A stretch of 64,000 bases of DNA, from NCBI GenBank assembly GCA_020848435.1, contig JADLAC010000089.1, forward strand, positions 1 to 64,000. Reading direction: 5' to 3'. The notes beneath the pieces were generated by a model, which searched no databases, was not told where the DNA came from, and saw nothing but the letters and a program-made list of their open reading frames with translations. Both the position numbers and the translations under genes were made by a program. The first letter of the stretch is position 1. Each line of letters begins with the position of its first letter. Origin of the DNA: Burkholderiales bacterium. GTDB lineage: Bacteria > Pseudomonadota > Gammaproteobacteria > Burkholderiales > WYBJ01. Shown here piece after piece: positions 1-40,446 of the stretch.

Positions 1-126
1 CGCTTTTCGCGCATGGCGGTGTCGAACGACTTGCCGATAGTCTCGCTATCGGCTGCGTCGTCCTCCTAGCCCTGCGCGAAAATCGCCTCCGTCGCACACG
101 TGAAATCAAGTCCGACAGGCTCCTAG
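1..126 (-). repeat. Structured dispersed repeat, copy 1
   Basis: Read on the minus strand, it starts with a 25-nt block (126 down to 102) identical to positions 39587-39611. A nested hairpin region follows. Outer arms are 4-13 and 73-82 (perfect 10 bp), middle arms 26-30 and 57-61, and inner arms 33-40 and 46-53 (perfect 8 bp, 5-nt loop). It lies just downstream of the thiolase-like gene and in the same orientation. It may extend beyond the left window edge. No reading frame of note is present. Confidence 0.7.
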
Positions 127-39209: not shown

Positions 39210-39720
<511 letters not shown>

Positions 39721-39898
39721 CCCGGATGTCACCTCGGCCGGCCCGTCGTAAAGGCAACGGGCCGGAGGATAGAAGGGCTCGCGTCCATCCGATACGCGGC
39801 GCTCATGCCCAAGGCCCACGCGCGCGGCCGGCGCATCGCTCGACCGGGCGCTTCCACAGCCGCGAGCGTTTGCCTGCCTCTCGTGCCGGAATCGCTCG

Positions 39899-40446
39899 CT
39901 AGCCCCGCAGTAGCACGACCACCGCACCCGATCCGCCGTCCGCCGGGCGTGCTTCGCAGTAGGCGAGCACCTCGTCGCGCAGCGTCAGCCAATGCGCGAG
40001 CTTGCGCTTGAGCACCGGTTCGCGGTTGCGTGAGCGCAGGCCCTTGCCGTGAACGATACGCACGCAGCGCGTGCCGCGCTGCATGCACTGCGCGAGGAAC
40101 GCGGAGGTCGCGATGCGCGCCTGCGCGGCCGTCATGCCGTGCAGGTCGAATTCGTCTTGCACCACCCAGTGACCGCGCCGCAGCTTGCGCAATACCCGCT
40201 CGGCATGCCCGGACGCAAGTAAAGCATTTCCTCGCCCGTCGCGGTCCCGGCATCGGGGTGCGGGCGGGAGCGCAGCGATTCGTGCAGCACTTGCCGATCA
40301 TCGCGCAGCCTTTGCAGCGGCAACGGCGCGGGGGGCAGGGGCCTGATTTCCACCCGCGCCGGCCCGCTGAGCGGCACGACGCCGCGCATCGCCTGATGGA
40401 AATCCGGGTCGTGCCGCCGCACGGGCTCGGTTGCGGGTTTCTTCAT
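39899..40446 (-). pseudogene. Smr-domain protein gene with frameshift
   Basis: Two adjacent reading frames together give one Smr-family protein of about 182 residues. The 5' part (from ATG 40446) encodes a linker ending EEMLYLRPGMP. The 3' part, in the other frame, encodes the Smr domain: FDLHGMTAAQA, IVHGKG and the final GGSGAVVVLLRG. A single missing G near 40200-40203 restores one frame. Smr domains are MutS2-like nucleases or RNA-binding factors. Because the domain itself is intact and conserved, either a sequencing or assembly error or a recent mutation could explain the shift. It is downstream of trxB on the same strand. Confidence 0.8.

Follow-up and report, generated by a model that had tools for sequence, protein, structure and literature searches.

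A probable IS1182-type MITE with hairpin arms at CTAG sites in a Burkholderiales genome

Introduction

IS1272 is a member of the IS1182 family of insertion sequences (IS). It is reported to undergo stem-loop-replacing transposition, and a structure-dependent mode of transposition has been proposed for it (PMC5678879). In Methanosarcina acetivorans, non-autonomous elements (MITEs) derived from ISMac2 measure 160 and 169 bp, with IR of 26 and 25 and DR of 4 and 0, respectively (PMC3852290). In the literature searched, these MITEs and the IS1272 paper were the only work relevant to IS1182 together with MITEs, or to the terminal inverted repeat (TIR) and loop strings of the element described here.

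The window analysed comprises the first 64,000 nucleotides of contig C89, which is part of a 5.73-Mb draft genome (89 contigs, completeness 93.55%). A sequence-only reading of it had singled out a structured repeat behind two genes, and had proposed either an RNA element at gene 3' ends or a mobile intercalating element. We found that this repeat is very probably a non-autonomous IS1182-type transposable element (MITE), with hairpin arms that are probably distant members of a family apparently under single-strand selection. A MITE of IS1182 type is an already known kind of element; the conserved hairpin family behind it is the newer and more interesting part.

Results

Two opposite arms of one element type in the window

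The 25 nt CTAGGAGCCTGTCGGACTTGATTTC at 102-126 (minus strand) and 39587-39611 (plus strand) match exactly, as had been described. In a search of the window, the 16-nt core of this block had exact matches only at these two places, and allowing up to three mismatches gave six matches against 0.28 expected from shuffles. Read on the minus strand, 1-126 begins with CTAG, continues with GAGCCTGTCGGACTTGATTTC and then enters a hairpin region cut by the window edge; it is incomplete because contig C89 starts within the element, with about 127 nt left to the element's end. The inverted-repeat regions proposed behind both leads were borne out by folding, which gave -59.1 kcal/mol for 1-126 on the minus strand (z=-5.2 against shuffles) and -60.5 kcal/mol for 39591-39716 on the plus strand (z=-2.7). 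Both repeats do lie downstream of a gene, since the genes for a thiolase-like protein (1-126) and for the P-II protein glnB (39587) read toward them. The features are listed in Table 1.

Table 1. Coordinates of the repeat features within the window
Feature	Position	Strand	Remarks
MITE right arm, truncated by contig start	1..122	-	Hairpin core with GCAG/CAAG internal loop; matches right half of full copies L201, L240 and L025
Right-end TIR GAGCCTGTCGGACTTGATTTC	102..122	-	Core matched 115 times in the genome with up to two mismatches
CTAG target-site duplication, right end	123..126	.	Second CTAG directly after, at 127-130
CTAG target copy with glnB TAG stop codon	39587..39590	+	Congener locus L314 has the empty site: ...GGCGGCAATCTAGCCGCGCAG...
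Left TIR and left arm of second MITE copy	39591..39716	+	Matches left arms of 46 ends; standard right arm absent
Remainder of 308-bp insert relative to congener	39717..39898	.	Not recognisable as standard right arm (decayed or rearranged); bounds from L314 alignment
Second CTAG copy with TAG stop of convergent Smr-domain gene (39899-40192)	39899..39902	-	L314 alignment

Rather than repeating the same part, the two stretches represent opposite arms of a single element type: 1-126 is a right arm, and 39591-39716 belongs to a different copy, of which it is the left arm. A common layout with differing bases had been seen at both because they are the two halves of an inverted structure. The alignable common core that had been pointed out is indeed present: the arms align nearly gap-free, and both carry GCAG...hairpin...CAAG. 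Past the 25-nt lead, 62 of 117 columns are identical between left and right arms, compared with 44.9 ± 5.3 (maximum 60) in 200 shuffles of one arm. The arms have 16 base pairs in common, five of them with both sides changed, and, judged from this alignment, are diverged inverted paralogues.

Copies in the source genome

Throughout the source genome, the TIR core was matched 53 times on the forward and 62 times on the reverse strand, corresponding to about 100 ends. Read inward from these ends, the arms are of two kinds, left (46 ends) and right (41 ends). Complete two-ended copies (L201, L240 and L025) are 266 bp long and gene-free. Shorter two-ended forms of 180, 99, 76, 50 and 38 bp, with one or both arms lost, make up an internal-deletion series with CTAG at the ends, and CTAG flanks both sides in six of ten two-ended copies. 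The ends of dozens of contigs fall about 127 nt into the element, indicating that the assembly is broken at a repeated element; the element thus interrupts draft assemblies at its copies. One base pair of the left arm is G-C in seven copies of this genome, C-G in six and the unpaired intermediate C-C in five. One otherwise complete copy (L240:1202-1467) has its left hairpin reversed between the stems, the outcome that recombination or template switching inside a hairpin is expected to give.

Against the roughly 100 ends found here, three congeners (G001, G002 and G003) have 0, 2 and 0 TIR matches, respectively. This difference, together with CTAG duplications and an empty site, upholds the earlier suggestion of a mobile intercalating element.

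Insertion at CTAG and position behind genes

The empty site was found at glnB in the congener G001 (locus L314), where one CTAG ends both glnB (...GCAATCTAG) and, on the other strand, the convergent gene for an Smr-domain protein. The window instead has a 308-bp insert between two CTAGs, with the glnB stop at 39587 and the Smr stop at 39899; its bounds are set by the L314 alignment, in which the window up to 39590 and from 39899 abut. Only the first 126 bp of this insert are assignable to known element parts. The other 182 bp (39717-39898), not present in the congener, contain a GC-rich hairpin and an internal CTAG at 39717.

CTAG is strongly under-represented in the window, being seen 25 times against 56 expected from trinucleotides and 200 from base composition. 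At 27 of the 104 ends examined, a host TAG stop lies inside the flanking CTAG, with both arms alike. The frequent position behind genes is therefore explained by insertion into CTAG, a sequence that is rare here and often part of a TAG stop codon, and it illustrates that a hairpin which is no 3'-end signal of the host can still end up precisely at stop codons. Across the same 104 ends, the flanking gene reads toward the element at 26 left and 19 right ends, and away from it (gene 5' end) at 19 left and 21 right ends, counts that are approximate because the genes were called by a codon-usage script. Meaning had been attached to the sense orientation of both window copies; either arm faces the upstream gene about equally, and the orientation of the two copies follows from the TIR and inverted symmetry of the element. 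This lack of arm polarity toward genes gives no sign of a sense-strand 3'-end function.

Relationship to IS1182 transposons

The TIR GAGCCTGTCGGACTT is found, identical or with one to two changes, at the ends of the IS1182 elements L088, L179 and L186, and the ends of an IS1182-family transposon at L145 are the same or nearly the same. At L179, on a Pseudomonas aeruginosa plasmid, CTAG-CAGCCTGTCGGACTT...AAGTCCGACAGGCTG-CTAG surrounds a 457-aa transposase annotated as IS1182 (NF033551, 383 bits against a cut-off of 270), and this IS has the CTAG target duplication in common with the MITE copies. In another genome (G110), an IS1182 element and a hairpin element both carry the variant TIR GAGGCTGTCCGAGAA. 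As in a MITE, the repeat combines a shared TIR and CTAG duplication with multiple copies and no transposase gene. The TIRs, the CTAG duplication, the copy number, the empty site and the same TIR on IS1182 transposons elsewhere were observed directly, and we infer that an IS1182 transposase moved the element in this lineage.

No match to PF01609, PF13751 or NF033551 was retrieved from the 93.55%-complete draft of the source genome (G000); the autonomous partner is therefore absent, has been lost, or lies outside the assembled draft. None of the autonomous IS1182 elements examined has the hairpin core. In a Pseudomonadota sample, an IS1182 gene was present in 14 of 40 hairpin-positive and 47 of 209 hairpin-negative genomes, a weak co-occurrence. 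All three observations weigh against the IS1182 reading. At L303 (G110:C143), the flanks extend the inverted repeats of an IS1182 copy to 29 nt, as could result if it had inserted into a terminator or another palindrome.

A conserved hairpin family in Proteobacteria

The TIR TAGGAGCCTGTCGGACTT was retrieved from more than 100 stretches of the GTDB collection, belonging to beta-, gamma-, delta- and zetaproteobacteria, Nitrospirae and a few other phyla, where it often bounds palindromes of 167-169 bp. Members of this 167-bp family form a single long stem, with the TIRs as its foot. We aligned 30 members that were less than 90% identical and alignable end to end (alignment A1). Their consensus hairpin has 59 pairs, 39 of which show compensatory change. 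In A1, 93.3% of cells are paired and 321 cells have changed on both sides, compared with 105 ± 9 in shuffles; the covariation score is 0.503, compared with 0.184 ± 0.008 in shuffles and 0.067-0.147 when partners were slid. The compensatory changes sought with covariance models are hence present in the wider family. The earlier claim that pairing is kept while bases change holds very strongly there (39 of 59 pairs) and weakly between the two window arms (5 of 16). Internal loops conserved in sequence are TCGnAGCGA/GCAGnCGA, GAGGnCAG/ATGGnCCG, and GCAG/CAAG or GAGGCGAATAG/CTATTTAACGA.

With a covariance model (R1), the element was detected in 40 of the 249 Pseudomonadota genomes sampled. A GCAG-hairpin-CAAG tip is present in the window arms, and a model of the inner core (R2) gave 15.4 bits for the window arm and 15.4-18.7 bits for right arms, scores that are weak (E 0.07-0.5) and always at the homologous place; overall, the homology of the window arms to the family is weak, at E 0.05-0.5. 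In 141 kb, all sub-threshold R2 matches lay inside an element. Because R2 scores the arms weakly yet at the right place, their membership in the 167-bp hairpin family is likely and unproven. The hairpin core of the family is carried on TIRs of this class across Proteobacteria.

In one genome of the same order and another family (G047; 3 Mb; loci L032, L044-L062 and L248-L277), we counted more than 200 family ends. Copies there are of two size classes, 168 bp and, with 39 bp inserted in one arm, 207 bp; L186, encoded in this genome as well, is related to the P. aeruginosa IS1182 transposase at 73% identity. The element is likewise found in many sampled genomes of family f74 (e.g. G106, G110, G192 and G219), perhaps Mariprofundaceae, from another class of the phylum, with the TIR variants GTCGGACTT and GTCCGAGAA.

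Searches of the window and ten loci against Rfam 15 gave no match to the element above the gathering score, and at a relaxed E only a chance-level one (19.6 against 68 bits). Neither the family nor its TIR was found described as a mobile element in the literature searched; most subscription journals and ISfinder lay outside this search, so a name may exist there. Within this scope, the earlier remark that no named family was known for the repeat stands.

Strand asymmetry of tolerated mismatches

We compared mismatch survival, expressed as a fraction of the shuffled expectation, on the strand defined by the loop motifs. On this motif strand, G-U survives at 0.71, A-C at 0.28 and other mismatches at 0.26; G-U exceeds A-C in 22 pairs against 5 (sign test, p=0.0015, uncorrected for relatedness). 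To guard against a bias from choosing pairs on the sense strand, pairs were also predicted from both strands, and the asymmetry held (G-U 0.56, A-C 0.28, other mismatches 0.22). An independent set of 15 other sequences gave 0.52, 0.25 and 0.21, respectively. Recent changes within the source genome showed no G-U preference, in small numbers, and a mutation-spectrum control in G047 counted 7 C>T against 2 G>A distinct sites, which are few. G-U is thus tolerated and A-C is not, whereas upkeep of a cruciform or of the TIRs would treat both alike; selection therefore appears to act on the single-stranded form of one strand, RNA or ssDNA. We tentatively infer that this form is RNA.

Among the other explanations of these patterns, the one that survives best, and still an unlikely one, is a MITE whose palindrome is kept as DNA, with cruciform extrusion joining the two TIRs for the transposase as proposed for IS1272. 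It draws on the reported targeting and replacement of inverted repeats by IS1272 (PMC5678879), on the TIRs at the foot of one long stem in the 167-bp family and on the left arm of L240, whose inversion is of a kind that hairpin recombination can produce. However, both strands are present in a cruciform, which should therefore tolerate G-T as readily as A-C, and only G-U is tolerated; nor does extrusion need the conserved mismatched internal loops. It is less probable again that the compensatory changes in a MITE are mutational, with template switching perfecting imperfect palindromes and no structural selection. Long palindromes are prone to correction by template switching, and the elements do lose arms by deletion between short repeats, but such a process would erase the conserved unpaired loops (TCGnAGCGA/GCAGnCGA and GAGGnCAG/ATGGnCCG) and does not predict the preference for G-U over A-C.

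Tandem-gene contexts in the wider family are 14 sense to 8 antisense, not significant; as the element has no fixed orientation relative to genes, nothing points to a role in host mRNAs. A cis-acting RNA kept by the host in sense orientation at gene 3' ends (terminator, mRNA stabiliser or RNase III site), the first proposal of the sequence-only reading, is very improbable despite the stable hairpins, the many copies directly behind stop codons and the strand-specific G-U tolerance of the wider family, since either arm faces the gene equally often, tandem contexts are of both orientations, many copies adjoin gene starts, congeners nearly lack the element, and the CTAG duplications and empty site mark a MITE. 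A MITE randomly oriented to genes was the outcome that the sequence-only reading had itself set as refuting, and by that rule the RNA proposal fails, while the compensatory changes that it also asked for are present in the wider family.

Discussion

For the IS1182-type MITE that we favour, the following course of events can be proposed. The 266-bp element consists of two hairpin arms of about 100 nt, diverged inverted copies of each other, with a 21-nt TIR (GAGCCTGTCGGACTTGATTTC) on the outer side of either arm. An IS1182-family transposase supplied in trans would recognise the TIRs and insert the element at CTAG, duplicating the 4 bp. With CTAG rare and many of the used sites being stop codons, copies often lie right behind genes, each flanking gene keeping its TAG stop after insertion. 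The hairpin core would then be maintained by selection on the single-stranded form of one strand. The single strand may matter for transposition, or may make read-through transcripts tolerable; an RNA role would perhaps be to render such transcripts harmless or to stabilise them, as has been suggested for hairpin MITEs of other kinds.

More tentatively, the hairpin core could be an unnamed structured RNA that has spread through Proteobacteria on MITEs, switching TIR variants with the local IS1182 transposons and acting as a one-strand RNA either in mobility or to render insertions harmless. The usual view of MITEs is that they are passive transposon debris; here, the core is conserved, with loops and compensatory changes, across classes and TIR variants. 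This makes a functional RNA (or ssDNA) stage of a bacterial MITE a hypothesis that can be tested.

Compared with described systems, the element resembles IS1182-family IS and MITEs in its similar size, long TIRs and 4-bp duplication, and its TIR matches proteobacterial IS1182 elements. It differs from IS1182 MITEs in residing in a genome with no detected IS1182 gene, in its two-arm 266-bp architecture and in a hairpin core that is common to several classes and absent from the autonomous elements examined. YPAL/RU-2 of Yersinia (167-169 bp) is alike in length, long hairpin, intergenic dispersal and a proposed effect on read-through mRNA (PMC2229807), but as described it lacks terminal repeats and its duplications measure 3-26 bp, and the RU-2 sequence (PMC2759123) is without this TIR. 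Homology to YPAL/RU-2, suggested by the length of 167-168 bp, was rejected, as the published 168-nt sequence, compared by eye, does not have the GAGCCTGTCGGACTT end. Correia/NEMIS, ERIC/RU-1 and RUP are likewise small hairpin-forming, non-autonomous mobile elements found between genes, but the published descriptions give them TA ends and different TIRs (PMC2229807). IS1272 insertions replace their target without duplication, whereas CTAG is duplicated here; the IS1272 transposase acts on palindromic sequences, which is a possible reason why hairpins matter to the element described here (PMC5678879).
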